Assembly (NCBI RefSeq): GCF_014196455.1
Contig: NZ_JACIDS010000004.1
Location: 372,001-436,000, forward strand
Length of the DNA: 64,000 nucleotides
Reading direction: 5' to 3'
Source: Kaistia hirudinis
GTDB taxonomy: Bacteria; Pseudomonadota; Alphaproteobacteria; Rhizobiales; Kaistiaceae
Positions 5,430 to 42,742 of this stretch are shown piece after piece (the stretch's first letter is position 1; each line of letters opens with the position of its first letter). A program made the position numbers and the translations under genes. Below the pieces are notes generated by a model that was given only the letters and a program-made list of their open reading frames with translations, ran no database searches and was not told the origin of the DNA.

Positions 5430-5436
5430 GTGCGCC

Positions 5437-6635: not shown

Positions 6636-6775
6636 GCTCAAAAACTGTCGCCCTGGCGTGCAAAGCTTGGGCGATTGCAGCCGATGGTCGTGGATTTCCG
6701 GGTCGCTCGCGCCTGTCTGGGTCCGCAGGCACGCCACCCCACGGGTGCCATGTGGCTAGCGCCGGCGGGGCGATG

Positions 6776-6820: not shown

Positions 6821-6914
6821 CGCTCCATCCACGGCTTTTTTTCGCGTGGGACGGCTCGCCGCGACCGATGCGCGACCGCGTCGAGGTCGGCGCCAGCGAC
6901 GCTGCGAACCGGCT

Positions 6915-27502: not shown

Positions 27503-28405
27503 TCAAGCCTTTACCGCGCCGGCCGTCAGCCCGGCGATGAACTGCCGCTGCATCAGGAGGAAGATGATGATCACGGGCAGCGTCGTGATCATCAAGGTCG
27601 CGAAATAGAGGTTCCACAGCGAATCATACTGCTGGAAGAAGGCGACGAGCCCGAGCGGGATCGTCTGCAGCTCCGGCTTCCTGAGCAGCAGGAACGCCAG
27701 GAAGAAATCGTTCCAGATCTCGATGAAGGCGAAGATCACAACCAGCGCGACGCCCGGCTTGACGAGCGGCAGCATGATCCGCGTCAGGATGGCGAGGCGG
27801 CTCGCGCCGTCGACCCGCGCCGCATCCTCGAGATCGGCCGGCAGCGTCAGGAAGAACGAGCGCAGGATGAAGACAGAGAGCGGCATCGACGTCGCGGCGT
27901 AGATCACGGCGAGGCCGAGGCGGTTGTTGATCATGCCGAGATCGCGGGCGACCAGGAAGAGCGGGATCGCCATGACCTGCGGCGGGACCAGCATGGCGGC
28001 GACCGTGACGGCGAGCACGACCGCGCGGCCGCGGAACTTGAGCCGGGCGAGCGCATAGGCGCAGGGCGTCGCGACGGCGACGAGGACTACCAGCGCCGCC
28101 GCCGTGATCGAGAGGCTGTTGACGATGCGGGAGCCGATGCCGGCGATGCGCCAGGCGTCCGCATAGTTCTGGAACACCAGTTCCTGCGGCGGTCCCCAGA
28201 CATTGTTGATGAGATCGGTCTTGGTCTTGAGCGAGCCGAACAGCACCCAGAGCAGCGGATAGACCGTCTGCAGCAGGACGATGCCGAGCGCGAGATAGAT
28301 GCCAGAGAATTCGAGGAGCCCGCGCCAGCCGAGATCACCGAGCGTATCGGCAACGCCGCGGCGTGCGGGTCGCGGAGTGGCGAAGGACGAGGTTCCGGCG
28401 GCCAT
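27503..28405 (-). CDS. CUT1 sugar ABC transporter permease (MalG-like)
   Basis: A 300-residue inner-membrane permease with six predicted helices. The ATPase-coupling EAA loop is PADLEDAARVDGASRLAILTRIMLPLVKP near residue 200. The N-terminal cytoplasmic part is short and Arg-rich. It overlaps the upstream permease stop by one base and pairs with it. The operon has no ATP-binding gene, so an ATPase from elsewhere is needed, for example the UgpC/SmoK-type protein at 58811 or another in the genome. Confidence 0.92.
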   Translation of the reverse strand: MAAGTSSFATPRPARRGVADTLGDLGWRGLLEFSGIYLALGIVLLQTVYPLLWVLFGSLKTKTDLINNVWGPPQELVFQNYADAWRIAGIGSRIVNSLSITAAALVVLVAVATPCAYALARLKFRGRAVVLAVTVAAMLVPPQVMAIPLFLVARDLGMINNRLGLAVIYAATSMPLSVFILRSFFLTLPADLEDAARVDGASRLAILTRIMLPLVKPGVALVVIFAFIEIWNDFFLAFLLLRKPELQTIPLGLVAFFQQYDSLWNLYFATLMITTLPVIIIFLLMQRQFIAGLTAGAVKA

Positions 28406-29364
28406 CAGACGGCGAGCCTCGAGCGGCGCATCAGCGCGAGCAGCAGCACGCAGGCGAGGCCGACGATCAGGAACAGTACATAGCCCATGGCCGAGGCATA
28501 GCTCATCTGCCCGTCCTGGAAGGCCTTGGTCATCATATAGGTGAGCGCGACCTCCGTCGCGTGGTTCGGGCCGCCCTTGGTCAGGACATAGACGATGTCG
28601 AAATTGCGCACGAAGGCGCCGGAGAGACCGAGGATCGTGTTGATGAAGACGATCGGCATGATCAGCGGCAGCGTGATGTGCCAGAAGCGGCGGACGCGGC
28701 TCGCGCCGTCCATGGTCGCCGATTCATAGAGGTCGGTCGGGATGGTCTGCAGGCCGGCGAGATAGATGACGGCGTGGAAGCCGAGCCATTTCCAGACATC
28801 GACGGCGATGACCGAATAGAGCGCGATATGCGCGTCGCCGAGCCAGGATTGCTTGAGTGCCCCGAGGCCGACGGCGTCGAGGCCGGCATTCAGGAGGCCG
28901 AAGACGGGATTGTAGATCCATGACCAGAGCAGCCCGACCGCCACGAAGGACATGGTGACCGGGATGAAGGCGGCGGCGCGGAAGAAGGCCCGGCCGAGCA
29001 GCGCGCGGTTGAGGAGGAGCGCCAGCGCGAGGCCGAGGATGTTCTTCAGCACCAGCACGGAGAGCACGAAGATCAGATTGTTCTCGATCGCGCCGAGGAA
29101 GATCGGATCGCGGGCGAGACGCCAGTAATTGGCGAGACCGGCAAAGCGCGGCTCCGAGAAGCCGTCCCAGTTGGTGAGGCTCAGCCAGAAGCCGTGCAGG
29201 AACGGCCAGACATAGAACAGCGCGAACAGGATGCCGGCCGGCAGGATCATCCAGAAGGCGACCGCGCCGTCCCCGGTCTCGGGGCGCCGTGGCGCCCCGA
29301 GACGTGCAGGCTTGCGGCCGGGAGAGGGGGCCTTCGCCTGCTCTGGGAGGACGTCGGTCGGCAT
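28405..29364 (-). CDS. CUT1 sugar ABC transporter permease (MalF/UgpA-like)
   Basis: A 319-residue inner-membrane permease. A 35-residue hydrophilic Pro/Arg-rich N-terminus precedes AFWMILPAGILFALFYVWPF; five further helices follow. The EAA loop is PTDLYESATMDGASRVRRFWHITLPLIMP, and ILGLSGAFVRNFDIVYVLTKGGPNHATEV is the typical substrate-path segment. The start is ATG 29364; the longer frame upstream belongs to no recognised domain. It forms the channel with the permease at 27503. Confidence 0.92.
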   Translation of the reverse strand: MPTDVLPEQAKAPSPGRKPARLGAPRRPETGDGAVAFWMILPAGILFALFYVWPFLHGFWLSLTNWDGFSEPRFAGLANYWRLARDPIFLGAIENNLIFVLSVLVLKNILGLALALLLNRALLGRAFFRAAAFIPVTMSFVAVGLLWSWIYNPVFGLLNAGLDAVGLGALKQSWLGDAHIALYSVIAVDVWKWLGFHAVIYLAGLQTIPTDLYESATMDGASRVRRFWHITLPLIMPIVFINTILGLSGAFVRNFDIVYVLTKGGPNHATEVALTYMMTKAFQDGQMSYASAMGYVLFLIVGLACVLLLALMRRSRLAV

Positions 29365-29377
29365 GTCCGCGCGCCGG

Positions 29378-30343
29378 CTACGGAACCCGCCCGGGCGCGC
29401 CGGGCGGAGTGAGGACCAGGCCGAGCGTGTCGCGGATATAGGCGATGCTCTCCAGCGCCGATTGCTCGGCCGTCTTCTGCGACGCGTCGAGCTCGATGAT
29501 GGCAAGGCCCGCATAGTCATTGTCGAGCAGCACGTCGACGAGGGCGGGCAGGTCGACGACGCCGGCGCCGAGTTCGCAGAAGGCCGCATAGCGGTCATAG
29601 CCCTTGAGCGCCGGATCGACTGCGGAATCCTTGAAGTGCATGTAGCGCACCGCCGAGATGTAGGTCTTCAGCGCGTCGACGGGATCGGAATTGGTGTGGA
29701 CCAGATGCGCCGGGTCGATGCACAGCCCCGCTACGGAGGTGTCGAGCTCGTCCATCATCCGGTCGAGCTGGTCGCGCCGCTCGATGAAGGTATCGAGATG
29801 CGGGTGGTAGACGGTGTCGATGCCCAGATCCTTGGTCCGCCGGCCTATATCCTCGAGCGCACGGCAGAAATCGACATAGTCCTGCTTGGTGTGCGGGCCG
29901 GCGACGCCTTCCGAGGGGCCGCCGCCGAGCACGAGCACCGGCGCGCCGAAGCCCTTCAGCAGCCGGGCGAGCCCGACGAGCACGTCGCGCTCATATTCCC
30001 AGGCGACCGGGTTGGTGAAGATCGCATTCACATAGAGCGAGGAAAGGCGGATGCCGTTCGCCGTCTGCTCCTCGGAAAGCAGCGCATAGCGGCGCAGAAT
30101 GTCGGTGTCGGTCGTGACGCCCATCGGCGCCTGATTGCCGAGCTGCATATATTTGCGGGCGTACTGGTCCGAAAGGCTCGTGAAGGCGAGGATCTCGAAC
30201 CAGCCGAAGCCCTGCTCGGCGAGGAACTTGATCGCCGGCCGCAGAGGCTGGCCCGTGAGGTCCCAGCTGTTCAGATGGTAGCCGATCGAGAAGCGCTGAC
30301 GCTCGGAGCGGGGCTTGGTCATGGTTTCACCAGACTTGGACAT
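29378..30343 (-). CDS. Sugar phosphate isomerase/epimerase family protein (xylose isomerase-like TIM barrel)
   Basis: About 321 residues with an AP endonuclease 2/xylose isomerase-like barrel. Recognisable strands are FSIGYHLNSWDL, GFGWFEILAFTS, VLVLGGGPSEGVAG, DTVYHPHLDTFIE (metal His and Glu), LCIDPAHLVHTNSDPV (Asp, His), RYMHFKDSAVDP and DYAGLAIIELDAS (Glu). The metal ligands are all present. Relatives include inosose dehydratases and sugar epimerases, consistent with the neighbouring Gfo/Idh enzyme. The start is uncertain between ATG 30343 and ATG 30322. Confidence 0.85.
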   Translation of the reverse strand: MSKSGETMTKPRSERQRFSIGYHLNSWDLTGQPLRPAIKFLAEQGFGWFEILAFTSLSDQYARKYMQLGNQAPMGVTTDTDILRRYALLSEEQTANGIRLSSLYVNAIFTNPVAWEYERDVLVGLARLLKGFGAPVLVLGGGPSEGVAGPHTKQDYVDFCRALEDIGRRTKDLGIDTVYHPHLDTFIERRDQLDRMMDELDTSVAGLCIDPAHLVHTNSDPVDALKTYISAVRYMHFKDSAVDPALKGYDRYAAFCELGAGVVDLPALVDVLLDNDYAGLAIIELDASQKTAEQSALESIAYIRDTLGLVLTPPGAPGRVP

Positions 30344-30397
30344 GTCGCCGGATCCGGGACCTTGCACGCGCAACGCCTCGGGAAATTGCGGGAAAGG

Positions 30398-30430
30398 GCG
30401 CCGCCGCCCGGGAGGGAAAGGCGGCGGCGC
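30398..30430 (-). repeat. Intergenic 11-bp GC hairpin after the sugar-binding protein gene
   Basis: GCGCCGCCGCC (30398-30408) pairs perfectly with GGCGGCGGCGC (30420-30430). On the minus strand it lies 19 bp behind the binding-protein stop (30449) and upstream of the isomerase-like gene. No T tract follows, so transcription may continue while the upstream mRNA is protected. Confidence 0.65.
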
Positions 30431-30448
30431 AAAGTACCGGTCAGAAGC

Positions 30449-31798
30449 TCACTTGGGCGGCCACTGGCCGGATGCCTTGACCTCGTCGAAGGCGGTCTGG
30501 ACGGAAGCGGCGGCCGCTTCCGGCGTCATCGTGCCGCCGACCACGCCGGCGATCGCAGATGCCGTCGCGGTTGCGACTTCCGAGGGCCAGATCCAGTCGA
30601 GGAACTTGATCGTGGCCGGGAAGGCCTCCTTGCGCAGTTCGATCGCATAGGGCGCGTCGACCTGCGGGACGCCCTTGATCGAGGCGGCGATCGGCTGTTC
30701 CGGCGCCAGATAGAGCGTCGCGACCTCGGGCCGCGTCAGATATTCGATGAAGCCGATGGCCGCATCGACCTTCTCCGGCGGGATGTTCGAGGACAGGCAG
30801 ATGCCGTTGTCCGGGCCGCCGCCATGGCCGGGATTGCCCGGCGTGCCGTCCATCTTCGGGAAGGCGAAGACGCCCCACTTGAAGTCCTTGACGGTCTGCT
30901 GCAGCGAGGGAATTTCCCAGGTGCCGCCGTAATACATGGCGCTCTTGCCGGCGGCGAAGGCGGCGCGCATGCCGTCCTGGTCGACCGAGAGCGAGTCCTT
31001 CGACAGGACGCCGTCATCGACCCACTGCTTGATCAGCTTGAACGCCTCGACATCGGGCGCGTCGGTGAACTTGGTCGTGCCCTCGAGATTGGTCTGCGTC
31101 TTGGCGATGGCGTCGCCCGAGGCCTGCGAGAAGGTCTCGAAGAACCACATCGGCCACATGACCGTGTTCGAGCCCTGGTGCAGCAGCGGAATGACGCCGG
31201 CTTCCTTCAGCTTCGGAACGGCGGCCTTGAGATCGGCATAGGTCTTCGGCACGGGGATGCCGAGCTTCTCGAACAGATCGACATTGTAGTAGATCGTCGA
31301 GGTCGACAGCGTCGAGATCGGCACGCCATAGACTTCGCCATTCGTCGTGTAGGCGGCCAGCGCGGCCGGGTCGATGCGGTCCTTGAAGGGGCCGATCTTG
31401 TCGGTGATCGGCGAGACCAGCTTGCGGCGGATATAGACGCCATTGGTGTAGAAGGCCGGGCAGGCGATGAGGTCCATCTCCTGGTCGGCCATGCGCGCGG
31501 TCATCATCCGCTGGATGCCGTCGCCCTGGGCGCCCTGCGCATCCCATTCGACGGCCGTGACCTGCGGATAGGCCTTGATGAAGCCGCTCACGACCTCGTC
31601 GAGGATCTTCTGCTGCTCGTCCGGCGTCTGGCGCGGCGCGAGGCGATCGAGCGCCGAGGCGCCGAAGACCTTGAGCGTCACGCCATCGGCGTAGCTCGCG
31701 GCGGGCGCCGCGAGGAGGCCGAGCCCGACGAGGCCGGCTGCGAGACGGCGCCGCAACAGGCGGCGTGATGATTTGGTAGTTCCCTGCTGGATTGGCAT
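30449..31798 (-). CDS. CUT1 sugar ABC transporter substrate-binding protein
   Basis: A 449-residue extracytoplasmic solute-binding protein (family 1). The N-terminus MPIQQGTTKSSRRLLRRRL plus LVGLGLLAAPAASYADG is an Arg-rich signal sequence. The mature protein has VTLKVFGASALDRLAPRQTP, YGVPISTLSTSTIYYNVDLFEKLGI, AAFAAGKSAMYYGGTWEIPSL and GFIEYLTRPEVATLYL, in the usual order. It is the first gene of the operon ending at 24730 and supplies the permeases at 27503 and 28405. The sugar is not known. Confidence 0.92.
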   Translation of the reverse strand: MPIQQGTTKSSRRLLRRRLAAGLVGLGLLAAPAASYADGVTLKVFGASALDRLAPRQTPDEQQKILDEVVSGFIKAYPQVTAVEWDAQGAQGDGIQRMMTARMADQEMDLIACPAFYTNGVYIRRKLVSPITDKIGPFKDRIDPAALAAYTTNGEVYGVPISTLSTSTIYYNVDLFEKLGIPVPKTYADLKAAVPKLKEAGVIPLLHQGSNTVMWPMWFFETFSQASGDAIAKTQTNLEGTTKFTDAPDVEAFKLIKQWVDDGVLSKDSLSVDQDGMRAAFAAGKSAMYYGGTWEIPSLQQTVKDFKWGVFAFPKMDGTPGNPGHGGGPDNGICLSSNIPPEKVDAAIGFIEYLTRPEVATLYLAPEQPIAASIKGVPQVDAPYAIELRKEAFPATIKFLDWIWPSEVATATASAIAGVVGGTMTPEAAAASVQTAFDEVKASGQWPPK

Positions 31799-32274: not shown

Positions 32275-33285
32275 ATGTCCAGCTGGTCTCGCCGTCTCAT
32301 CGCGCTCGCCGGGGCTTCCGCCCTCGCGCTCGCGGCCAACGCCGCCTCGGCGAAGGAAGTGTCCATCGCCGCGATCTCGGGCTATTTCGCGCAGGGTTTC
32401 GGCGTCTCGATCGTCGACGGCCTCAAGAAGGCCGAGAAGGATTTCGGCATCAAGCTGAAGCTGGTCGACACGGGAAACCGTGCGCTCGACTATGAGGAGC
32501 AGTTCAACAACATCGCCAAGGACGGATCCTACGATCTCGTCTTCGTCATGGGCTGGGAACTGGTCGACGCGCTGCAGAAGACCGCCGCCGCCTATCCGAA
32601 CACGCATTTCGTGTTCATCGACGGCGTGCTCGATTCCAAGAACATCATCTATGCGAATTTTGCGCAGAACCAGGGTTCGTTCCTGGCCGGCGCGCTCGCC
32701 GCGTCGATGGCCGAGAAGGGCAGCGCCATCGCCGGTCTCGGCGACGGCAAGGCGATCGGCTTCGTCGGCGGCCGCGACATTCCGGTGATCCGCGACTTCC
32801 TCGGGGGCTATGAGGCGGGCGCCAAGGCCGCCGCGCCGGATGTGCGCCTCGACGCCGTCTTCGCCGGCACGTTCGACGATCCGGCCAAGGGTTCCGAGCT
32901 GACCATGGCGCTCTACGGCCAGGGTTCGGACATCGTCTACAACGTCGCCGGTCCGACGGGCGAGGGCGTGCTGCAGGCCTCCGCCGCGGCCGACAAATAT
33001 TCGATCGGCGTCGATATCGACCAGTGCGGCGTCGCGCCGGGCCATGTCATGGCGTCGATGCTGAAGAAGGCCGATGTCGCCGTCTACAGCCTCGTCAAGG
33101 ATGTCGTCGACGGCAAGCCGCCGGAGCCCGGTTCGATCCACACCTATGACCTGAAGTCGGGTGGCGTCGAGCTGCTGCTCTGCCCGCAGGTCGTGGACAA
33201 GATCCCGGCCGAGGTGAAGGCGAAGGTCGAGGCGCTCAAGGCTGACGTCGTCTCCGGCAAGATCACCGTCCCCACGGTGAAGTAG
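32275..33285 (+). CDS. BMP family periplasmic binding protein (second system)
   Basis: A 336-residue extracytoplasmic protein. The signal peptide (RRLIALAGASALALAANAASA) is cut before KEVS. The BMP domain shows IAAISGYFAQGFGVSIVDGLKKAEKDFG, DLVFVMGWELVDALQKTA, ANFAQNQGSFLAGALAAS, GGRDIPVIRDFLGGYEAGAK, IVYNVAGPTGEGVLQAS and YSIGVDIDQCGVAPGHV. It is only distantly similar to the BMP protein at 5437, so the ligand is likely different. It heads a plus-strand run of transporter and nucleoside-catabolic genes reaching 41536. An inverted repeat element follows the stop. Confidence 0.92.
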   Translation: MSSWSRRLIALAGASALALAANAASAKEVSIAAISGYFAQGFGVSIVDGLKKAEKDFGIKLKLVDTGNRALDYEEQFNNIAKDGSYDLVFVMGWELVDALQKTAAAYPNTHFVFIDGVLDSKNIIYANFAQNQGSFLAGALAASMAEKGSAIAGLGDGKAIGFVGGRDIPVIRDFLGGYEAGAKAAAPDVRLDAVFAGTFDDPAKGSELTMALYGQGSDIVYNVAGPTGEGVLQASAAADKYSIGVDIDQCGVAPGHVMASMLKKADVAVYSLVKDVVDGKPPEPGSIHTYDLKSGGVELLLCPQVVDKIPAEVKAKVEALKADVVSGKITVPTVK

Positions 33286-33307
33286 GCCGGTGCTGCGTTC
33301 TTGAACT

Positions 33308-33460
33308 CTCCCCTTGAGGGAGGGTCAAAACCGCTTAGCGGCTTTGGGGAGGGGTCCGCCGGATCCAACGGCGAGAACGCTTGGGCCTTGCCCAAGCTAG
33401 CCCCCTCCCGAAGCCGCTGTCGCTTCGCTCCGCGCCTTCGACCTCCCCTCAAGGGGGAGG
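33308..33460. repeat. Intergenic repeat with inverted termini between BMP gene and ATPase gene
   Basis: The left end CTCCCCTTGAGGGAGGGT (33308-33325) and right end ACCTCCCCTCAAGGGGGAGG (33441-33460) are inverted versions of each other with two or three mismatches. Between them are a smaller hairpin (AACCGCTTAGCGGCTTT) and TTGGGCCTTGCCCAA. Elements with such ends are scattered in many Rhizobiales genomes. It separates binding-protein and ATPase genes that otherwise look like one operon. Confidence 0.75.
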
Positions 33461-33496
33461 TTCAGAACGTGTCTCTTGCTCGCCGGACCGATCACC

Positions 33497-35023
33497 ATGT
33501 CCCTCGCCATCGAGCTGAAATCGATCACGAAGCGGTTCGGCTCCTTCGTCGCCAACGAGGATGTGAGCCTCGCCGTCGAGCGCGGTCGTATTCACGCGAT
33601 CATCGGGGAGAACGGCGCGGGCAAGACGACGCTGATGAACGTCCTTTTCGGGCTGCTGCAGCCGGACGAGGGCGAGATCTTCATCGACGGCGAGAAGAAG
33701 GTGCTGCCCAATCCCGCCGCGGCCATCGCGGCCGGCATCGGCATGGTGCACCAGCACTTCAAGCTCGTGCCCTCGCTCACCGTGGCCGAGAACGTGTTTC
33801 TCGGCATGGAGATCCGCAAGGGCGGCCTCATCGACCACAAGGCACAGATCGCGCGCACCGCCGAGCTGTCGCAGAAGTTCGGCCTGCGGGTCGATCCCGG
33901 CGAGCGGGTCGGGCTGCTCTCGGTGGGCATCGAGCAGCGCATCGAGATCCTGAAGGTGCTGGCCCGTGGCGCGCGCACCATCATCCTGGATGAGCCGACC
34001 GCCGTACTGACGCCGCAGGAGAGCCGCGAACTCTTCCAGACGCTGCGCGGCTTCGTCGCGCAGGGCATGACCGTGCTCTTCATCTCGCATCATCTCGAAG
34101 AGGTCATGGAGGTCTCCGACACCGTGACCGTGCTGCGCCATGGCAAGGAGGTCGCGACGCGGCCGACGGCGGAGCTCACCAAGGCCGATCTCGTGCAGAT
34201 GATGGTCGGCCGCGCCGTCTCCTTCGACCGCCGCCCGCGCGGCCCCGTGACGGGCAAGCCGGTGCTGGAGGTCTCGGACCTTTGGGCGCGCGACGAGCGC
34301 GGATTGCAGGCGCTGAAGGGCGTCTCGTTCCAGGTCCGCGCCGGCGAGATCGTCGGCATCGCCGGTGTCGCCGGCAATGGTCAGACGGAGCTCGCCGAGG
34401 TGCTGTCCGGCCTTCGCCCGGCCTCGCACGGTACGATCATGCTGGCCGGACAGGCGATCCAGAACCGCTCGGCGCGCGCGATCCGCCATGCCGGCGTGGC
34501 ACATGTGCCGGGCGATCGTCTGGTGCGCGGCGTCGACCGCGGCGCCTCCGTCGCGCAGAACATCCTGATGGGCCGGCAGGACCAGAGCCCCTGGTCGCGC
34601 TTCGGCGTCATCGACCGAACCTATCTGAACGAGCAGACCAAGCGGCTGATCAGTCGTTTCGATATCCGTACGCGTTCGCCGGAAACGCCGGTGAAGAGCC
34701 TTTCGGGCGGCAATATCCAGAAGGTCGTGCTGGCGCGCGAATTCTCCGGCGATGCCGGCTTCCTGCTCGTCGACCAGCCGACGCGCGGCGTCGATATCGG
34801 CGCGACCGAGGCCATCCATTCCGAAATCATGCGTCAGCGCGAGGCGGGCAAGGCGATCCTGCTCATCTCGGTCCAGCTCGACGAACTCATCGCGCTCGCC
34901 GACCGCATCCTCGTTATGTTCGCCGGGCGCATCATGGGCGATCTGCCCGGCGAGGGTGTCAGCGAGGAGGCGATTGGCCTGCTGATGGCCGGCGTCGAAA
35001 GCGCCCCGGCGGAGGTCGCATGA
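33497..35023 (+). CDS. BMP-type nucleoside ABC transporter, ATP-binding protein (second system)
   Basis: A 508-residue tandem ATPase. Domain 1: Walker A GENGAGKT, signature LSVGIEQR, Walker B IILDEPTAVL, H-loop ISHHLEE. Domain 2: degenerate Walker A GVAGNGQTEL, signature LSGGNIQK, altered Walker B LLVDQPTRGVD. The start is ATG 33497 (MSLAIELKSITKRFG) after the repeat element; a few upstream in-frame codons are not conserved. Its stop overlaps the next permease start (ATGA). It powers uptake of the BMP ligand. Confidence 0.93.
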   Translation: MSLAIELKSITKRFGSFVANEDVSLAVERGRIHAIIGENGAGKTTLMNVLFGLLQPDEGEIFIDGEKKVLPNPAAAIAAGIGMVHQHFKLVPSLTVAENVFLGMEIRKGGLIDHKAQIARTAELSQKFGLRVDPGERVGLLSVGIEQRIEILKVLARGARTIILDEPTAVLTPQESRELFQTLRGFVAQGMTVLFISHHLEEVMEVSDTVTVLRHGKEVATRPTAELTKADLVQMMVGRAVSFDRRPRGPVTGKPVLEVSDLWARDERGLQALKGVSFQVRAGEIVGIAGVAGNGQTELAEVLSGLRPASHGTIMLAGQAIQNRSARAIRHAGVAHVPGDRLVRGVDRGASVAQNILMGRQDQSPWSRFGVIDRTYLNEQTKRLISRFDIRTRSPETPVKSLSGGNIQKVVLAREFSGDAGFLLVDQPTRGVDIGATEAIHSEIMRQREAGKAILLISVQLDELIALADRILVMFAGRIMGDLPGEGVSEEAIGLLMAGVESAPAEVA

Positions 35024-36066
35024 TGTCCGATCGCGTCGCGGGCTTGATGGGACAACTGATCGCCGTCGCGATCGCGCTGGCCATCGGAGCGGTCATCATC
35101 CTGGCGGTCAATGAGAGCCCGCTGCGCGTGCTGGTCACGCTGATCGACGGCGCCTTCGGCAATCCGGAGCGCATCGCCGGCACGCTGCTCCAGATGACGC
35201 CGATCCTCATCTGCGGCATCGCCGCCTGCATCTCGCTGCGTGGCGGGCTGTTCAATATCGGTATCGAGGGTCAGCTTTTCATCGGCGGTTTCGCGGCGAC
35301 CTGGGTCGGCTTCTCCTTCGCGCTGCCGCCCTTGGTGCATGTGCTGTTCGGCCTTGCCTTCGCCGCGCTCGCCGGGATGCTGTGGATCGCGGTGCCCGCC
35401 TTCTTCCGCGCCCGCTTCAACACCAATGAGGTGGTTTCGACCATCCTCGCGAACTATGTCGCGATCCTGCTGACCTCCTATCTCACGATCAACGTGTTCA
35501 AGCGGCCGGGCGGCCAGCCGGATACGCCGGCGATCCTCGAAAGCGCCTATCTGCCGCAGATCTTCTCGTTCTCGCGGCTGAACTGGGGTCTCTTCATCGG
35601 CGTCGCGCTGGCGATCGGCGCCTATCTGTTCTTCACGCGGACGGCGCGCGGCTATGCCGTGACCGAGATGGGCGCGAACCCGAAATTCGCCGAATATGGC
35701 GGCATTGACATCAAGCGGCAGACCTTCGTGCTGCTGCTCGTCTCCGGCGCGGTCGGCGGCCTGGCCGGGGGCATCGAGTCGCTCGGCGTCCATCACCGCT
35801 TCATGGAGGGCTTCGCGCCGGGCTTCGGCTTTGACGGCGTGATCGCCGCGCTGCTCGCCAATGGCAGCCCAATCGGCACCATCGTCACGGCGCTCTTCTT
35901 CGGCGCGCTGCGGAACGGCTCGCTGCTGCTCGAAGTCGACACCACCGCCTCGCGCGAGATCATCACGGTGATCCAGGCGCTCATCATCCTCGCCGTTTCG
36001 GCGCAGATCCTGGTTCGGCGCCGCGCGTCGGACTCGACCGCTGGAGAACGTCGTTGGAAGTTCTAG
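35020..36066 (+). CDS. BMP-type ABC transporter permease 1 (second system)
   Basis: A 348-residue BPD_transp_2 permease. Markers are ISLRGGLFNIGIEGQLFIGGF near residue 68, FFRARFNTNEVVSTILANYVA near 130 and VTEMGANPKFAEYGGIDIKR near 210. An N-terminal extra helix (IAVAIALAIGAVIILAV) matches the larger partner of the pair. It overlaps both neighbours by a few bases, which indicates translational coupling. Channel subunit of the second nucleoside-type importer. Confidence 0.93.
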   Translation: MMSDRVAGLMGQLIAVAIALAIGAVIILAVNESPLRVLVTLIDGAFGNPERIAGTLLQMTPILICGIAACISLRGGLFNIGIEGQLFIGGFAATWVGFSFALPPLVHVLFGLAFAALAGMLWIAVPAFFRARFNTNEVVSTILANYVAILLTSYLTINVFKRPGGQPDTPAILESAYLPQIFSFSRLNWGLFIGVALAIGAYLFFTRTARGYAVTEMGANPKFAEYGGIDIKRQTFVLLLVSGAVGGLAGGIESLGVHHRFMEGFAPGFGFDGVIAALLANGSPIGTIVTALFFGALRNGSLLLEVDTTASREIITVIQALIILAVSAQILVRRRASDSTAGERRWKF

Positions 36067-37028
36067 AGCGCCTCTTCAATGCCGCCCTCATCGTGGCGAT
36101 GCTGCGCACTACGGCGCCGATCCTGCTGGTCGCACTCGGCGGATCGTTCACGACCAAGGCCGGCATCTTCAATATCGGCCTCGAGGGCCAGATGCTGCTC
36201 GGCGCCTTCTTCGCCGTGATCGGCACGATCGTATCCGGCTCGCCCTGGATTGGCGTGCTGTGCGGCGTCGCCGCGGCGCTGGTGCTCGCCTACATCTTCG
36301 CGCTGCTCGTCGTCACCTTCCGCGCCAATGAAGTGGTCGTCGGCCTCGCGCTCAACATCCTCGCCAGCGGCATGACGATATCGCTCATGAAGGCGATCTT
36401 CGGCACGCGCGGCTCCATTTTCGGTCATGGCCTGGTGGGGCTGCCGATCATCCGCCTGCCCTTCGCCAAGGATCTCGGCTGGTTCGGACAGATCATCTCG
36501 GGCTATACGCCCCTCGTTTATGTCGCCTTCCTCGCCGTCCCGGTCCTGATCATCTTCTACAAGCGCTCGCGGCTCGGGCTCTATATCCGCGTCGTCGGCG
36601 AGAAGCCGGAGGCGGCGGAGGCGCTCGGCATCTCGATTGCGCGCATCCGCTATACCGCCTCGCTCATCTGCGGCGTGCTGGCGGGGCTCGCCGGCGCGCA
36701 TCTGTCGCTCGGCTACACGACGATGTTCACCGAGAACATGTCATCGGGCCGCGGCTTCATGGCGGTGGCGATCCTGATCTTCTCGAATGGCGATCCGCTC
36801 AAGCTGCTCGCCGGATGCCTGCTGTTCGGCTTCTCCGATGCGCTCTCGCTGCGCATGCAGACGACGCTCGGCGTCTCGTCCTACATCATTCTGGCCGTGC
36901 CCTATCTGGTGGCTCTGGCCGCGCTCTTCGCGCTTTCCTATCGTTCGCGACCACGACTCATCCAGGAGACGCTTGCCACGATGGGACGCGCCCTATCCGT
37001 GAAACCCAACGGCGCCTCGGGAAGCTGA
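36054..37028 (+). CDS. BMP-type ABC transporter permease 2 (second system)
   Basis: A 324-residue BPD_transp_2 permease beginning at TTG 36054 (MEVLERLFNAALIVAMLRTT) inside the end of the preceding gene. Markers are FTTKAGIFNIGLEGQMLLGAF, FRANEVVVGLALNILASGM and VVGEKPEAAEALGISIARIRY. The C-terminal tail (RPRLIQETLATMGRALSVKPNG) is hydrophilic and longer than usual. It partners with the permease at 35020. The nucleoside hydrolase gene begins 17 bp later. Confidence 0.92.
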   Translation: MEVLERLFNAALIVAMLRTTAPILLVALGGSFTTKAGIFNIGLEGQMLLGAFFAVIGTIVSGSPWIGVLCGVAAALVLAYIFALLVVTFRANEVVVGLALNILASGMTISLMKAIFGTRGSIFGHGLVGLPIIRLPFAKDLGWFGQIISGYTPLVYVAFLAVPVLIIFYKRSRLGLYIRVVGEKPEAAEALGISIARIRYTASLICGVLAGLAGAHLSLGYTTMFTENMSSGRGFMAVAILIFSNGDPLKLLAGCLLFGFSDALSLRMQTTLGVSSYIILAVPYLVALAALFALSYRSRPRLIQETLATMGRALSVKPNGASGS

Positions 37029-37045
37029 GAACCGGGCCAGAGGAC

Positions 37046-38062
37046 ATGATGGAACGTATCATTCTCGATGTGGATTCGGCCGGAGACGACATCTTGGCGG
37101 TGCTCTTCGCCGCCGTGTCGCCCTCGGTGAAGCTCGAAGGCGTCACGACCTGCACCGGCGCCGCCGGTCCGATCGAGCAGGTGACCAATGTCGTCCTCAA
37201 CACGCTGACGCTGGCGGGCCGCGAGGATATCCCGGTCGCCAAGGGCGCGTGGCGCCCGATCGTCGGCAATTCGAAGGAGGACATGCAGGCGCCGGTCCAT
37301 TTCGAAAAGCGCCTCGTCGCACGCTTCGGCGAGCGGCTGAAGAAGTTCAATCCGCCGGCGCCGACGCCGACCCATCCCGTCCTCGACAAGCATGCAGCCG
37401 ATTTCATCATCGACACCGTCATGGCGTCGCCCGGCGAGATCACGCTGGTCGCGACCGGGCCGATGACCAATCTCGCCATGGCCTTTCTGCAGGAGCCGCG
37501 CCTCGCGGCCAATGTGAAGCGCATGTGCCTGCTCGGCGGCAATTTCGTTACGCCCGGCAACATCACGCCGCTCAGCGAATACAATATCTGGGCCGATGCC
37601 GAGGCCGCGCGCGTCGTGCTGAACCAGGGCGTCGAGACGATCCTGGTGCCGCTCGACGTGTGCGAGGACAATCGCGCCGCCGCCTCGATGCTGACGCGCG
37701 ACGATCTCGCCGATCTGCTCGACGCCGCGCCGGCCCATCCGGTGCGCGACATGATGCAGGATCGCTTCCCGATCTATATCGACATCTGGCGTGAGTTCTT
37801 CGATCTCGTCGGCTTCCCGATGGACGACATCATCACCGTCGCGCTCGCCTTCGATCCGACGCTCTGCACCATGACCGAACCGCTATTCTGCGACATCGTC
37901 CTCGACGGACGGCTCGCGCGTGGCCAGACGGTTGCCTATCGCGGCCGTCAGCTTCTGCCCGGCGGCGGGCCGAAGACGACCCGCATCTGCACCGATATCG
38001 ACGGACGGCGCTTCATGAAGCTGTTCAAGGAAACCATTGCCCTTTACGGCACGGCGGCGTGA
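37046..38062 (+). CDS. Nucleoside hydrolase family protein (first of two)
   Basis: A 338-residue hydrolase of N-ribosides. The calcium site is DVDSAGDDILAV, a departure from the usual DTDPGxDD. ATGPMTNLAMAF, LLGGNFVTPGN and EYNIWADAEAARV follow in order. The C-terminal HDPLA motif is not evident; DDIITVALAFDP occupies that region. An internal insertion (KKFNPPAPTPTHPVLDKHA) is also unusual. The differences suggest a non-standard nucleoside or nucleoside-like substrate. It starts at ATG 37046 with AGAGGA upstream and is coupled (GTGA) to the next hydrolase. Confidence 0.88.
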   Translation: MMERIILDVDSAGDDILAVLFAAVSPSVKLEGVTTCTGAAGPIEQVTNVVLNTLTLAGREDIPVAKGAWRPIVGNSKEDMQAPVHFEKRLVARFGERLKKFNPPAPTPTHPVLDKHAADFIIDTVMASPGEITLVATGPMTNLAMAFLQEPRLAANVKRMCLLGGNFVTPGNITPLSEYNIWADAEAARVVLNQGVETILVPLDVCEDNRAAASMLTRDDLADLLDAAPAHPVRDMMQDRFPIYIDIWREFFDLVGFPMDDIITVALAFDPTLCTMTEPLFCDIVLDGRLARGQTVAYRGRQLLPGGGPKTTRICTDIDGRRFMKLFKETIALYGTAA

Positions 38063-38073
38063 GGACGGATCCG

Positions 38074-39021
38074 ATGAGCCTGACCCCAGAGACCCGCCCG
38101 ACGCCGATCATTCTCGACTGCGATCCCGGCCATGACGACGCGATCGCGCTCGTCATGGCGCATCGCTCAAAGGCCGTCGACCTGCTCGGCGTGACCGTGA
38201 CCTGCGGCAATGCCGAACTCGACAAATGCGTGTCGAATGCGCTGCGCATCCTCGAATTCATCGGCGCCGGCGACGTGCCGGTCGCGGCCGGCTGCTATCG
38301 CCCGCTGGCGCGCCCGCTGGTGCTCGGCACGGCCGACGGCCCGAGCGGGCTCGAAGGCTCGCCCTATCTGCCGATGGCGACGAAGACCGTCGAGCCGCTG
38401 CATGCGGTCGATTTCATCGCCAAGACGCTCCGGGAGCGGGACGAGCCGCTGCGCATCGTCGCGACCGGACCGCTGTGCAATATCGGCCTGTTCATCCTGA
38501 AATATCCCGAGCTGTTGCCGAAGATCAAAGACATCACCTGGATGGGCGGCGTCTTCTGGCGCAAGAGCGAGATCATCACGCCGACGGAATTCAACGCCTT
38601 CTGCGACCCCGAGGCGCTGCGGATCGTGCTCGATTCCGGCGTGAAGCTGACCATGGTCGGCCTCGACGTTACCATGCAGGTGCTGGTCGAAGAGGAGCAA
38701 TATGCCGAGTTCCGCAAGATCGACACGGAACTCGGCCGCGTCGTGAACGACTGGCTGCTGTTCTACGAGAAGCTGCATCGCAACTCGATGGGCGTCGGCG
38801 GCGCCCTGCACGACCCGCTCGCTCTCGCTCTGATCATCGACCCGACGCTGGTGCGCACGCGCCCGGCCCATATCGGCGTCGATCTCTCGGGCACCTACAC
38901 CTTCGGCGCCACCGTCGCCGATTTCTGGAACGAGCGCGGCCTGCCGCCGAATGCGGAGATCTGCAAGGAGGTCGATGCCGACCGCTTCTTCGACCTGCTG
39001 TATTCGCTGCTGCGCGACTGA
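38074..39021 (+). CDS. Nucleoside hydrolase family protein (second of two)
   Basis: About 315 residues. It keeps the classical motifs: DCDPGHDDAIALVMA, GVTVTCGNAELDKCVSNALRILE, ATGPLCNIGLFIL, WMGGVFWRKSE, EFNAFCDPEALRIV and the C-terminal LHDPLALAL with its His. It is therefore likely to be a fully active N-ribohydrolase. The start is ATG 38074 behind GAGG; GTG 38059 overlaps the previous stop and is an alternative. The pair of unlike hydrolases in tandem suggests two substrates or two steps. Confidence 0.9.
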   Translation: MSLTPETRPTPIILDCDPGHDDAIALVMAHRSKAVDLLGVTVTCGNAELDKCVSNALRILEFIGAGDVPVAAGCYRPLARPLVLGTADGPSGLEGSPYLPMATKTVEPLHAVDFIAKTLRERDEPLRIVATGPLCNIGLFILKYPELLPKIKDITWMGGVFWRKSEIITPTEFNAFCDPEALRIVLDSGVKLTMVGLDVTMQVLVEEEQYAEFRKIDTELGRVVNDWLLFYEKLHRNSMGVGGALHDPLALALIIDPTLVRTRPAHIGVDLSGTYTFGATVADFWNERGLPPNAEICKEVDADRFFDLLYSLLRD

Positions 39022-39042
39022 TCCATCAGAGGAGAATCCGCC

Positions 39043-39687
39043 ATGTCCATCGACGTCTTCTCGGCCCACCACCATTCCGAACAGATCAAGCTTCATCCGG
39101 CCCACACCGCCGTGATCGTGGTCGACATGATCAACGAGTTCTGCAAGCCGGGCGGCAAGATGGTGCTGCCGGGCTACGAGGTGCTGGTGCCGCCGCAGCT
39201 CGCCGTGATCGATGCGGCGCGCGAGGCCGGCGCGGCGGTGCTCTGGGTGCATGACAGTCACCGCCGCAACATGCGTCGCGACCGGGAGCATCTGAAGCGC
39301 AAGCCGCATGGCGAAGAGGGAACCTGGGCGACCGAGATCATCGAGGATCTCGGCGCGCGCGACGACGAGATCCACATCATCAAGCGCCGTTATTCCAGCT
39401 TCTTCCAGACCGACCTCGATCTGGTGTTGAAGGACATGCATATCCATCAGCTCGTGGTGTTCGGCGTCGTCACCAATATCTGCGTGCGCTCGACGGTTCA
39501 CGACGCCTTCTTCCACGGCTATGAAGTCGTCGTTCCGCGCGATTGCTGCGCGGCGACGGGGCCCCGCGAGCAGGAATCGACGCTCTATGACATCGCGACG
39601 CATTTCGGCGTGGTGAGCGATGCGGCTTCCGTCGTCGCCGGGCTGACGTCGGGGACGATCATCGAGAACCATACCATCGCGGCCTGA
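39043..39687 (+). CDS. Isochorismatase-fold cysteine hydrolase
   Basis: A 214-residue amide hydrolase of the isochorismatase superfamily. The catalytic triad is D28 (VIVVDMINEFC), K114 (IIKRRYSSFF) and C147 (VVTNICVRST). Relatives include nicotinamidase, maleamate amidohydrolase, N-carbamoylsarcosine amidase and RutB (ureidoacrylate amidohydrolase). An N-terminal His-rich segment (SAHHHSEQ) precedes the fold. It lies 21 bp after the second nucleoside hydrolase and 652 bp before an amidohydrolase, so it probably removes an amide or carbamoyl group from the released base or its ring-opened form. Exact substrate unknown. Confidence 0.9.
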   Translation: MSIDVFSAHHHSEQIKLHPAHTAVIVVDMINEFCKPGGKMVLPGYEVLVPPQLAVIDAAREAGAAVLWVHDSHRRNMRRDREHLKRKPHGEEGTWATEIIEDLGARDDEIHIIKRRYSSFFQTDLDLVLKDMHIHQLVVFGVVTNICVRSTVHDAFFHGYEVVVPRDCCAATGPREQESTLYDIATHFGVVSDAASVVAGLTSGTIIENHTIAA

Positions 39688-39731
39688 GGGCGGCGGGCGG
39701 CGCACATGCCGCGGACAGAGAAGAGAGGCGA

Positions 39732-40295
39732 GTGAGCCGCATGGCATCGAATGAAGGGAATGTTGCGGCGTCGGAAATAGCCGGACGGGATGTCTGGCCC
39801 GATGCCTCAGCGGACCTCGACCTCATGGAGCGCGCCAAGCAGCTCTATGAGGCATCGGCCTATGACCTCGGCGAGCACGCCGCGCATATCATCCGCCGTG
39901 CCCATCAGCGCGCGACCATGCGCTTCCAGGAGGTGATGGGCGAGCACGACCTGACGCCGACGCAGATGGCCGCCCTCGCCACGATCATGAAGCATGGCGA
40001 ACTGTCGCAGAACCAGCTCGGCCGGCTGACCGCGATGGACCCGTCCACGATCAGCATCGTCATCCGCAAGCTGCTGAAGCACGGGCTGGTCCAGCGCTAC
40101 GCCTCGCCGGAGGATCAGCGCCTCACCATCATCCGCCTGACGAAGGCGGGGATGGACTACACCGCACCGCTGCTCGTCAAGAGCGTCGAGGTCGGCCGGC
40201 GCGTGCTGGCGCCGCTCAAGCCGAGCGAGCGCGCGCTGTTCATGGAAATGCTGCACAGAGTTGCGGACGGCGAAGACATCGCGCCCGGAGACTAA
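39732..40295 (+). CDS. MarR family transcriptional regulator
   Basis: A 187-residue winged-helix regulator with a 45-residue N-terminal extension. The core shows HAAHIIRRAHQRATMRF, LTPTQMAALATIMKHGELSQNQLGRLTAMDPSTISIVIRKLLKHGLV (recognition helix) and the wing SPEDQRLTIIRLTKAG. It lies inside the catabolic gene run, between the isochorismatase-fold gene and the amidohydrolase, and is the likely local regulator. MarR proteins usually sense aromatic or heterocyclic small molecules. Start GTG 39732 or ATG 39741. Dyads at 31936-31954 and 42788-42813 are possible targets. Confidence 0.9.
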   Translation: MSRMASNEGNVAASEIAGRDVWPDASADLDLMERAKQLYEASAYDLGEHAAHIIRRAHQRATMRFQEVMGEHDLTPTQMAALATIMKHGELSQNQLGRLTAMDPSTISIVIRKLLKHGLVQRYASPEDQRLTIIRLTKAGMDYTAPLLVKSVEVGRRVLAPLKPSERALFMEMLHRVADGEDIAPGD

Positions 40296-40339
40296 CGGGC
40301 CGCCGCCTCCCCGGCGGTCACTGACGGAAAGGACTGAAT

Positions 40340-41536
40340 ATGAGTCACGACGCCCCGACCGGCCCGGCGGGTCCGACCAAACTCGTCATCGAGAATATCG
40401 GCCTCATCCTTTCCGGCGATCTCGGCAATCCCATCCTCGATGGCGATACGGTCGTCGCGATCGACGGCAAGATCGTCGCCTTCGGACACGGCGGGGATAT
40501 CGATCTCGAGGGTGCGACGACGCGCGTCGATGCGCGCGGATCGACGCTGACGCCCGGCCTCATCGACAGTCATGTCCATCCTGTCGCCGGCGATTGGACG
40601 CCGCGCCAGAACCAGCTCGGCTGGATCGATTCCTGCCTGCATGGCGGGGTCACGACCATGATCTCGGCTGGCGAGGTGCATACGCCGGGTCGTCCGACCG
40701 ACATCATCGGGCTCAAGGCGCTCGCCATCTCGGCGCAGCGCCAGTTCTCCGCCTTCCGTCCGTCGGGCGTGAAGGTGCATGCCGGCGCGCCGGTGATCGA
40801 GAAGGGGATGGTCGAGGAGGATTTCGCCGAACTCGCCCGGGCCGGCGTGACGATGCTCGGCGAGGTCGGCCTCGGCTCGGTCAAGGATGGCGAGACGGCG
40901 CGCCAGATGGTGGCCTGGGCGCGCAAATACGGCATGAAGTCGATCATCCATACCGGCGGACCGTCGATCCCCGGCTCCGGCCTGATCGACAAGGACATCG
41001 TGCTCGCCGCCGACACCGATGTCATCGGCCATATCAATGGCGGTCACACGGCGCTGCCGGACGACCAGATCGTTTGCCTGTGCGAAAGCTGCGGCCGCGG
41101 CCTCGAGATCGTCCACAACGGCAATCTGCGCGCGGCGCTGCTCGCGCTCAACACAGCGCGCGAACTCGGCCAGCTCGAGCGCATCGTTCTCGGGACCGAT
41201 GCGCCGGCCGGCTCCGGCGTGCAGCCGCTCGGCATCCTGCGCACCATCTCGATGCTCGCTTCGCTCACCGACATCGCGCCGGAAATAGCCTTCTGCTTCG
41301 CGACCGGCAATACGGCGCGCATGCGCGATCTCGACTGCGGCCTGATCGAGATCGGCCGCTCCGCGGATTTCGTGCTGATGGACAAGCCGCAGCATTCGGC
41401 CGGCGCGACCATGCTGGAGGCCGTCAAGCTCGGCGACCTGCCGGGCATCTCGATGACCGTCATCGACGGCGTCGTGCGGACGGGCCGCTCGCGCAACACG
41501 CCGCCGGCGAACACCATGGCCGAGGTCGTAGGGTAG
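40340..41536 (+). CDS. Amidohydrolase, enamidase-like
   Basis: A 398-residue amidohydrolase-superfamily enzyme. The metal-binding HxH is TPGLIDSHVHPVAGDW; further ligands are likely in MLGEVGLGSVKDG (Glu/Lys), MKSIIHTGGPSI (His), VIGHINGGHTALP (His) and IVLGTDAPAGSGVQPLG (Asp). This arrangement resembles enamidase of anaerobic nicotinate breakdown and other cyclic-amide hydrolases rather than deaminases. It would open a cyclic amide or enamide. The ribosome site GGAAAGG precedes ATG 40340. It is convergent with the AA_synth genes, with a hairpin between. Confidence 0.85.
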   Translation: MSHDAPTGPAGPTKLVIENIGLILSGDLGNPILDGDTVVAIDGKIVAFGHGGDIDLEGATTRVDARGSTLTPGLIDSHVHPVAGDWTPRQNQLGWIDSCLHGGVTTMISAGEVHTPGRPTDIIGLKALAISAQRQFSAFRPSGVKVHAGAPVIEKGMVEEDFAELARAGVTMLGEVGLGSVKDGETARQMVAWARKYGMKSIIHTGGPSIPGSGLIDKDIVLAADTDVIGHINGGHTALPDDQIVCLCESCGRGLEIVHNGNLRAALLALNTARELGQLERIVLGTDAPAGSGVQPLGILRTISMLASLTDIAPEIAFCFATGNTARMRDLDCGLIEIGRSADFVLMDKPQHSAGATMLEAVKLGDLPGISMTVIDGVVRTGRSRNTPPANTMAEVVG

Positions 41537-41542
41537 TTCTTT

Positions 41543-41572
41543 CCCGGGCCCTGCCTTCGAGCGGGGCTCGGG
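41543..41572. terminator. Hairpin between convergent genes
   Basis: CCCGGGCCCTGC (41543-41554) and GCGGGGCTCGGG (41561-41572) pair along 12 bp with two G-U wobbles on the plus strand, loop CTTCGA. No strong T run follows. It fills the 40-bp gap between the convergent amidohydrolase and AA_synth genes. Confidence 0.5.
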
Positions 41573-41576
41573 CTGA

Positions 41577-42161
41577 CTACCGCAGCCCGTCCTCGCCCTT
41601 GATCTCGCTCTTCTGCAGACCGCCGACGCGGGGATGGGGCCGTCCCGAATCCGTCACGGCGATCGCCACGGCGACTTCGTTCTCGCGCGGCGCGTCCGAG
41701 ACATGGACTTCCATGCCGTCGAAATGCGAGCGGACATAGGCCGCATCCTTGTGGCCGAGCGGAATGTCGAAGGTCGAGCCGGGGGCGGCGCGCTTCTTGG
41801 ACGAGGGAATGAGTGCCGCACCTTTGCCGAGCGCACGGCGGAGCGGCGCGCCGATCTTGGGATGCAGCAGCGCCGCCGCATGTTCGAGTTCGCCCTCGGC
41901 GCCGACGGCGGCCGCCTTGCCGAAGCTCTCGACCTGAGGGCCGGGAATGCCGAGTGCCGCCACGGCGCGCGCCGAGAGCAGCGTACCGAGTTCGTCGCCG
42001 ATCTCATAGAGCGGCGTCAGATCCTCGACATAGCGGCCGGCATAGGGGTTCTCGATCACGGCGATCGCCGCCGCGCGCCGGGTCGGCGGCGAGACCGGCT
42101 CGCCGCCCTCGATCAGCGTCTCTTCGAGGATCGTGACGATCTTGCGGATCTTGGCGCTCAC
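41577..42161 (-). CDS. AA_synth family protein (DUF1185), copy A
   Basis: A 194-residue protein of Pfam AA_synth (PF06684), a family with a chorismate-mutase-like trimeric fold and no settled enzymatic role. Hallmarks are IRKIVTILEETLIEGGEP, AVIENPYAGRYVEDL, ELEHAAALLHPKIGAPLRRALG, ALIPSSKKRAAPGSTFDIPLGHKDAAYVRSHFDGMEV and the end RPHPRVGGL. It starts at GTG 42161, overlapping the stop of copy B (GTGA). The two copies are clearly related but diverged. Family members often neighbour amide hydrolases and ABC importers, as here. Confidence 0.9.
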   Translation of the reverse strand: MSAKIRKIVTILEETLIEGGEPVSPPTRRAAAIAVIENPYAGRYVEDLTPLYEIGDELGTLLSARAVAALGIPGPQVESFGKAAAVGAEGELEHAAALLHPKIGAPLRRALGKGAALIPSSKKRAAPGSTFDIPLGHKDAAYVRSHFDGMEVHVSDAPRENEVAVAIAVTDSGRPHPRVGGLQKSEIKGEDGLR

Positions 42162-42742
42162 CGGAGGCCGTCCCCGGCCGAGATGCCGTCCACCGTGAGG
42201 CCGCCGACGCGCGCATGGACGCGCGGTCCGGTCGTCATCACCAGAACGAGCACGATCTCGTTTCGCCGCGGCGCGTCGCCGATGCCGATCTCGAAGGCGT
42301 CGAAATGCGAGCGCACATAGGAGGCGTTGATATGGGTGACCGGAATGTCGATGCGCGTGCCGAGCCCGCCGACCTTCTTCGACGACGGAACGATCGCCTT
42401 GGCGCCACCGAGCACCTCGCGCATCGAATAGCCGCCCGGCACATGCCAGAGCGCACCATGCTCGAGCTCGCCCGCCTCGCCGACGATCGCGCCCTTGCCA
42501 TAGCCCTCGACGACCTTGGGATCGCCGCCGAGCGCCGCGACCAGCCGCTTGGCCATGTCGACGCCGAGCGGCTTCAGATCGTCCATCAGCCCCGTAATGT
42601 CCTCATGATAGGCGCCGGCATAGGGATTCTCGATCACCGCCGCGATCGCCGCACGCTTCGGCGGATGCGCCGCCGGCGGGCCGCCTTCATGCAGGATTTC
42701 CTCGACGATGGTGACGAATTTCCTGACCTTGATGTCGGCCAT
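42158..42742 (-). CDS. AA_synth family protein (DUF1185), copy B
   Basis: A 194-residue paralogue of copy A. Shared landmarks are VRKFVTIVEEILHEGGPP, AVIENPYAGAYHEDI, GELEHGALWHVPGGYSMREVLGG, AIVPSSKKVGGLGTRIDIPVTHINASYVRSHFDAFEI and GPRVHARVGGL. It is the first gene of the two-gene minus-strand operon and starts MADIKVRK at ATG 42742. The tandem arrangement suggests a hetero-oligomer or two related substrates. A pair of overlapping dyads lies 46-71 bp upstream of the start. Confidence 0.9.
   Translation of the reverse strand: MADIKVRKFVTIVEEILHEGGPPAAHPPKRAAIAAVIENPYAGAYHEDITGLMDDLKPLGVDMAKRLVAALGGDPKVVEGYGKGAIVGEAGELEHGALWHVPGGYSMREVLGGAKAIVPSSKKVGGLGTRIDIPVTHINASYVRSHFDAFEIGIGDAPRRNEIVLVLVMTTGPRVHARVGGLTVDGISAGDGLR

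Follow-up and report, generated by a model that had tools for sequence, protein, structure and literature searches.

A conserved Kaistia gene cluster that may link nucleoside uptake to the ring-opening half of reductive nicotinate degradation

A 64,000-nucleotide stretch of the Kaistia hirudinis genome (contig NZ_JACIDS010000004.1, positions 372,001 to 436,000; here called the window) contains at positions 32275-42742 eleven intact open frames that would serve the catabolism of an N-ribosylated nicotinamide-type compound, a reading to which we give a probability of roughly 0.55. Nine of the genes lie on the plus strand, and two genes of the AA_synth family, assigned by Pfam, are convergent with these. 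In the scheme that we infer from the gene families, their conservation, and their co-occurrence, an ATP-binding cassette (ABC) importer of the BMP type would bring in a riboside, and one or both of two nucleoside hydrolases, NH1 and NH2, would cleave its N-glycosidic bond. An isochorismatase-fold cysteine hydrolase (ISO) would remove the carboxamide nitrogen, either before or after ring opening; an enamidase (ENA) would open the cyclic enamide at the level of 1,4,5,6-tetrahydro-6-oxonicotinate (THON), yielding 2-formylglutarate and ammonia; and the two AA_synth proteins would act on 2-formylglutarate, by a proposed tautomerisation or decarboxylation to glutarate semialdehyde, with the carbon continuing via glutarate. 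The remaining gene encodes a MarR-family protein, the likely regulator. The initial annotation of this DNA had listed the same genes, all of which are present, open, and in range, and had proposed nucleoside import, deribosylation, amide chemistry, and cyclic-amide opening, steps that the comparisons described here support by inference. It had rightly seen that the cluster is real and conserved, and its guess at the logic was good, but it had missed the known nicotinate module that constitutes half of it.

The connection to nicotinate begins with ENA (40340-41536, plus strand; Amidohydro_1), a predicted cyclic enamide hydrolase whose closest solved relative is the Eubacterium barkeri enamidase 2vun (E = 2.9e-113, residues 13-396), a stronger match than the earlier label "enamidase-like" had claimed. 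ENA retains the HxH, KVH, GEVGL, HTGG, HINGG, and DAP stretches that align with the 2vun metal site, or rather with the residues that we take to bind the metal. At E<=1e-40, ENA occurs in 20 of the 398 genomes sampled from the phylum. Its company elsewhere is informative: on annotated Sulfitobacter and Comamonadaceae plasmids it is found with two AA_synth genes, 6-hydroxynicotinate reductase (HNR), UPF0280, and an ABC transporter. (A MarR gene and a molybdenum hydroxylase are also present in both Sulfitobacter stretches but absent from the Comamonadaceae one.) In a sample of 80 ENA loci, 21 of them shorter than 20 kb, HNR is present in 35; all 35 of these have AA_synth, in one or two copies, and 29 have a Sulfitobacter-like MarR gene. 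The window ENA is 73-77% identical to the ENA proteins of these 35 loci. Enamidase converts THON to 2-formylglutarate according to PMC9304392, and PMC3511419 has the nicotinate route of Azorhizobium caulinodans passing through glutarate and reports the HNR cluster as conserved.

Because ENA and AA_synth accompany HNR in other proteobacteria, the ENA half of the Kaistia cluster is assigned to the reductive THON route; judged by its relatives, ENA plus AA_synth is the THON-opening part of the gene set for reductive nicotinate degradation, and in the window ENA occurs with AA_synth and MarR, as it does in those gene sets. The cluster therefore has a close enamidase in common with the reductive nicotinate pathway of E. 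barkeri and A. caulinodans, and AA_synth and often MarR in common with proteobacterial HNR clusters. It differs in that neither HNR nor a nicotinate hydroxylase was found in the K. hirudinis genome (G000; 5.26 Mb, 14 contigs, listed as 100% complete), and in the presence, in their place, of the importer, both nucleoside hydrolases, and ISO. The initial statement that the genes match no Nic set was thus half right, and it is not supported for the core formed by ENA and AA_synth.

The same gene set, which the initial annotation had suggested seeking in other Hyphomicrobiales, is conserved as a unit. All eleven genes are together in 10 loci (the window, L029 of K. dalseonensis, L030 of K. soli, L031, L170-L173, L132, and L134), two of which are rearranged: in L132 and L134, NH2-NH1-permeases-ATPase-BMP lie on one strand and the AA_synth pair on the other, followed by ENA-MarR-ISO. 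Locus L174 has the full set except for adjacent AA_synth, and in L033 the genes from BMP through ENA are followed directly by nicotinate hydroxylase subunits. This linkage is rare at large, since only 4 of the 80 ENA loci have BMP, NH1, and NH2 (at least 60%) and 5 have ISO. NH1 itself is rare as well; at E<=1e-60 it is found in 3 of the 398 phylum genomes, and all 3 have ENA. Among 28 genomes of the family, NH1 (at least 75% identity) is present in 16 of the 17 that bear ENA and in 0 of the 11 that do not (Fisher p 5.6e-7, with kinship not corrected), and the joint presence holds also where the modules are unlinked. Because the cluster is conserved in relatives, this comparison shows its nucleoside half and its ENA half to be more than chance neighbours.

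A second line of evidence comes from plasmids that have the nucleoside half with a different ring opener. Matches to NH1 (67%) and ISO (67-71%) were found on plasmids of Rhizobium rhododendri and in six Sinorhizobium medicae records, and ENA is absent from these plasmid records at E<=1e-30. The R. rhododendri cluster and the one S. medicae cluster that was read have the order BMP-ATPase-permeases-NH1-NH2-ISO-MarR-AA_synth, with two AA_synth copies in the former and one in the latter, and with hydantoinase A and B (HyuA and HyuB) genes alongside. The same exchange is seen in HNR clusters, where hydantoinase A/B replaces enamidase on plasmids of Neorhizobium, Sagittula, Pleomorphomonas, and Fuscovulum (L225-L228). 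In particular, of 26 HNR plasmid records, 16 have ENA (at least 67%), 10 have HyuA (at least 58%), none has both, and none has neither; the plasmid records include near-duplicates (12 of Sulfitobacter and 6 of S. medicae). HyuA lies less than 8 kb from HNR in all 10 records by printed coordinates, and four of these were read with their annotation. At the same threshold HyuA is found in 17 plasmid records, which are these 10 and the seven BMP-NH-ISO records (the HNR count for the seven covers plasmids, not their chromosomes); the next HyuA match is at 46.6%. Between BMP and HNR clusters, the HyuA/B proteins share 59-73% identity. That the same two alternatives occur in both settings argues that ENA and hydantoinase A/B open the same lactam, and hydantoinase A/B is a candidate second THON ring opener.

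The nucleoside half is headed by a complete importer on the plus strand, consisting of a BMP/PnrA-type substrate-binding protein (32275-33285; PF02608, 3.5e-57), an ATPase with two ABC_tran stretches (33497-35023; PF00005, 8.8e-51), and two BPD_transp_2 permeases (35020-36066, PF02653, 4.2e-37; 36054-37028, PF02653, 2e-36). The cluster has in this respect the full four-gene likeness of BMP/PnrA-type nucleoside importers; it departs from them in that the Kaistia-type importer is tied to enamidase or hydantoinase A/B, not to purine genes. The closest solved relatives of the BMP protein are Lbp (7x0r) and TmpC (2fqw), and its best identities to paralogues within the genome are 38% and 33% among the 7 compared of the other 10 BMP hits. 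A gap of about 210 bp separates the BMP gene from the next gene, and the junctions from the ATPase gene to ENA are tight, ranging from a 13-bp overlap to a 44-bp gap with the start codons chosen here. Between the BMP and ATPase genes, at 33302-33464, is an imperfect inverted repeat with 39-nt arms that are 74% complementary and 85 nt apart; its 26-nt core has no second copy in the window at up to 3 mismatches. (The annotation of S. medicae ml29 splits the importer ATPase into two coding pieces, at L223 11580-12957, and the importer may be broken in that strain.) Common purine catabolism was therefore not retained as the likeliest role: common purines are an unlikely substrate because a separate BMP transporter cluster in the genome adjoins xanthine dehydrogenase, XdhC, and allantoate amidohydrolase.

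The two nucleoside hydrolases, NH1 (37049-38062; PF01156, 2.1e-72) and NH2 (38059-39021; PF01156, 5.1e-87), are IU_nuc_hydro proteins on the plus strand that had been described as unlike one another, as their 31% identity bears out. NH1 has the motif DVDSAGDD at residue 7 and MDD at residue 258, the place of HDP in NH2; NH2 carries DCDPGHDD together with HDP and is RihA-like, yet under the equivalog cut-off. (None of the 8 cluster proteins scanned, of the 11, reaches an NCBIfam cut-off.) A precedent for cleavage of a nicotinamide nucleoside is the yeast group I nucleoside hydrolase URH1p, which according to PMC11241417 cleaves nicotinamide riboside as efficiently as uridine. The MarR gene (39732-40295, plus strand; PF01047, 4.5e-15) has a GTG start at 39732 and was scanned from 39735.

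ISO (39043-39687, plus strand; PF00857, 2.7e-43) has an intact D28-K114-C147, as first noted, and these residues are invariant together with D71, H73, and H89 in all 19 aligned rows, the window included. The latter three could together bind a metal. In E. coli PncA, DWH (D-x-H) occupies the place of D71 and H73 in the alignment, and H89 matches by position, not by alignment column, to what we take to be the metal site of that nicotinamidase. The catalytic D-K-C and the fold are common to RutB, biuret hydrolase, and maleamate amidase, but ISO falls below every NCBIfam equivalog cut-off, including those for PncA (52.7 bits against 174, despite the presence of the catalytic D-K-C) and RutB (122 bits against 378), and its D-x-H corresponds to N-x-H in E. 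coli RutB. The RutA monooxygenase is not among the eleven genes at 32275-42742 (the rest of the genome was not searched for it). An AlphaFold model of ISO (predicted local distance difference test score 72.9, predicted template modelling score 0.77, residues 74-97, which include the loop with H89, under 50) gives RutB, biuret hydrolase, maleamate amidase, and triuret hydrolase as best Foldseek matches. The predicted target of ISO is either a ring carboxamide or a linear amide formed after ring opening.

Two AA_synth genes (PF06684, formerly DUF1185) lie on the minus strand at 41577-42161 (2.4e-73) and 42158-42742 (1.1e-72); the second matches the solved structure 3byq at 7.5e-58, and 2qtp is another relative with a structure. 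A formyl-dicarboxylate may be an intermediate of both nicotinate and trigonelline degradation, and for this reason AA_synth is proposed to act on such a compound. Family members have been tied to the breakdown of ring compounds, as AA_synth would be here: TgnF to trigonelline and HcdD to 7-hydroxycoumarin, in the available portion of PMC7913881. TgnF is described there as stimulating succinic semialdehyde oxidation in trigonelline degradation, and no such stimulation was seen with HcdD. The pathways of both proteins differ from that of the Kaistia cluster, and that portion of the paper contains no proven reaction for the family.

Several findings weigh against the proposed pathway, the first of which concerns the origin of its base. 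HNR has no match in G000 at E<=1e-10. It is present in 17 of 22 selected ENA-bearing genomes (in two of the other five, the sole ENA is the 44-45% one), and in just 2 of the 28 family genomes, namely K. dalseonensis (G423, also sampled as G398) and G419 (also G401); 15 of the 17 ENA-bearing family genomes and 13 of the 14 Kaistia genomes are without it. A molybdenum-cofactor (MoCo) hydroxylase of the P0002 type is found at 59% in G419 alone among the family genomes, and G433 has a 36% full-length match; none of the 14 Kaistia genomes has one closer than 36% at E<=1e-100. Full-length NicB (63%) is confined to G423, leaving 13 of 14 Kaistia without it, and the remaining matches begin at residue 704 or later. 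G000 has neither a close P0002 orthologue nor a full-length NicB, other types of nicotinate hydroxylase not having been searched, and its sole P0002 match at E<=1e-60 is the xanthine dehydrogenase mentioned above. With HNR, NicB, and a close MoCo hydroxylase not found, the enzymes recognised in G000 do not account for a THON-level base. In addition, the closest solved proteins to ISO include RutB, biuret hydrolase, and maleamate amidase, and not nicotinamidase.

A local stand-in for the reductase was looked for near the cluster and rejected, as no candidate is conserved across clusters. One gene family, with a ketopantoate-reductase-like copy in L030, lies between ENA and AA_synth in L029, L030, L172, and L173, and not in the window; genes resembling short-chain dehydrogenases/reductases (SDR) occur near L029, L132, and L134 (28-31% matches), and both S. 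medicae and R. rhododendri have SDR-like and epimerase-type genes upstream of BMP.

A doubtful alternative is that the cluster carries out ordinary catabolism of nicotinamide riboside or nicotinamide, by way of nicotinamide, nicotinate, 6-hydroxynicotinate, and THON, with the hydroxylase and reductase encoded elsewhere by unrecognised families. Four genomes (G123, G194, G402, and K. dalseonensis) do have the BMP cluster, HNR, and a nicotinate-hydroxylase orthologue; in G419 (L032/L137) ISO-MarR-ENA share a contig with the hydroxylase and HNR; and the D-x-H and H of ISO at or near the presumed nicotinamidase metal-site places, like the 36% match in G433, would fit this view. The Kaistia counts for HNR, NicB, and the MoCo hydroxylase, and the nature of the one hydroxylase match in G000, argue the other way. 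Nicotinamide riboside, which the initial annotation had named, remains a sensible candidate, but with the enzymes searched its breakdown is incomplete in those Kaistia genomes. Where HNR and nicotinate hydroxylase are also present, it could feed the whole route; in the 13 of 14 Kaistia genomes, the window included, in which neither was found, the base probably has the oxidation level of THON on entry, or both steps are carried out by unrecognised enzymes.

The pathway would also lose its unity if a general nucleoside importer with its hydrolases merely adjoined a separate enamidase module, which we consider unlikely. In seven other Kaistia genomes (type B; L208-L214), BMP-ATPase-permeases-NH1-NH2 form an operon with no ENA in the stretch. 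In six of these the operon is apart from ENA (the seventh, G428, is interrupted by contig ends), and ISO, MarR, an acyl-CoA dehydrogenase, a CoA-transferase, the AA_synth pair, and ENA are grouped elsewhere in the genome, with the acyl-CoA dehydrogenase and CoA-transferase between ISO-MarR and AA_synth-ENA (families read in L178). The CoA-transferase of L178 resembles succinate-glutarate CoA-transferase, under the cut-off, which favours the proposed pathway, but the gene is no marker, as it is also present in 5 of the 11 ENA-free family genomes. G419, the sole exception in the family, has ISO-MarR-ENA without NH1; NH2 is RihA-like; and 14 of the 17 ENA-bearing family genomes come from one genus, so that few independent events are counted. 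Against two independent modules stand the joint presence and absence of ENA and NH1 in the family, the separate BMP cluster that serves purines, and linkage of the halves not only in Kaistia but also in two more genera of its family, in two genomes from a different family of the same taxonomic order, in a metagenome-assembled genome, and on the Rhizobiaceae plasmids with their different ring opener. (A further acyl-CoA dehydrogenase and glutarate-type CoA-transferase in G000, at L215 (C2:307000-326900), adjoin a ferredoxin reductase, a Rieske ferredoxin, and a fatty-acid-desaturase-type protein.)

Slightly less probable still is a reading in which the base does not derive from nicotinamide but is another cyclic enamide, to which ENA has drifted. 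Most Kaistia lack HNR, and ENA columns 223 and 269 are both Ala in all 15 rows from genomes without it, as against 4 (column 223) and 9 (column 269) of 90 HNR-type rows and, respectively, 3 and 1 of the 5 BMP/ISO-type rows with HNR; the HNR-type rows were labelled by exclusion, the genome-wide HNR check having covered 22 ENA-bearing and 28 family genomes. A change of ENA substrate may therefore have occurred. A specificity switch that follows the presence of HNR was rejected, as most differing columns track clades (columns 223 and 269 being the exception) and none lies in the stretches aligned with the 2vun metal site. The latter fact, the close identity of the window ENA to that of the 35 HNR loci, and the similarity of HyuA/B between BMP and HNR clusters all speak against drift, and the approximately 45% identical ENA-like proteins found with AA_synth in settings without HNR speak for it. 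(These form a distinct clade, 44-47% identical, in L111, L112, L144, and L145, each paired with one AA_synth gene; a flavin-dependent (FAD) monooxygenase-type gene is close by in L112 and L144.) Eleven genomes tested have one ENA each, save G404 with two. In a tree made by a quick method, type A proteins form mostly a basal grade, with L033 outside it, and type B proteins cluster with G382 and Methylobrevis (Shimodaira-Hasegawa-like approximate likelihood ratio test 96), a lead toward two separate origins of ENA in Kaistia. It is very improbable that the cluster is a decaying relic whose upstream steps Kaistia has lost, for although HNR and the hydroxylase were not found, its frames are open, ENA is without internal stops in all 14 Kaistia genomes, and the tree suggests two ENA origins.

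Two neighbouring regions deserve mention. A sugar-type ABC transporter with a TIM-barrel gene (27506-31798, minus strand) is transcribed divergently from the cluster. The gene for its binding protein recurs next to the clusters of both Kaistia types, and in R. rhododendri (L224) it follows a second MarR gene, with a TIM-barrel gene also there. At 1762-9211 (minus strand) is a second importer-type cluster, in which a BMP hit (5452-6378) adjoins three genes that are of permease/ATPase size (judged by size only), a RihC-like nucleoside hydrolase (6918-7871), and a TRZ/ATZ-family hydrolase (7871-9211); its layout again suggests import, deribosylation, and action on the base, here with a deaminase-like enzyme.

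Taken together, these comparisons favour catabolism of an N-ribosylated compound whose base would be nicotinamide or an oxidised or reduced form of it. We tentatively suggest, as a possible but more specific proposal, a pathway dedicated to reduced or damaged nicotinamide in riboside form, which would join the THON route at a point after the hydroxylase and reductase steps, with ENA and hydantoinase A/B interchangeable and AA_synth acting on 2-formylglutarate; 6-oxo-1,4,5,6-tetrahydronicotinamide riboside, which might come from NAD(P)H damage, would be an example of its substrate. The portion of the open-licence literature covered by our search contains no description of this cluster. As far as that literature goes, the nicotinate module is known, and the nucleoside feed, a setting in which hydroxylase and reductase were not found, and the enamidase/hydantoinase interchange are new. 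The scheme as a whole offers concrete candidate substrates for four enzymes, a proposed role for AA_synth (whose structures are solved but for which the literature covered gave no proven reaction), and a proposed second THON ring opener in hydantoinase A/B. For Kaistia (a genus that also includes K. dalseonensis and K. soli), it would mean that nucleosides, possibly damaged pieces of NAD among them, can enter the reductive degradation of nicotinate.

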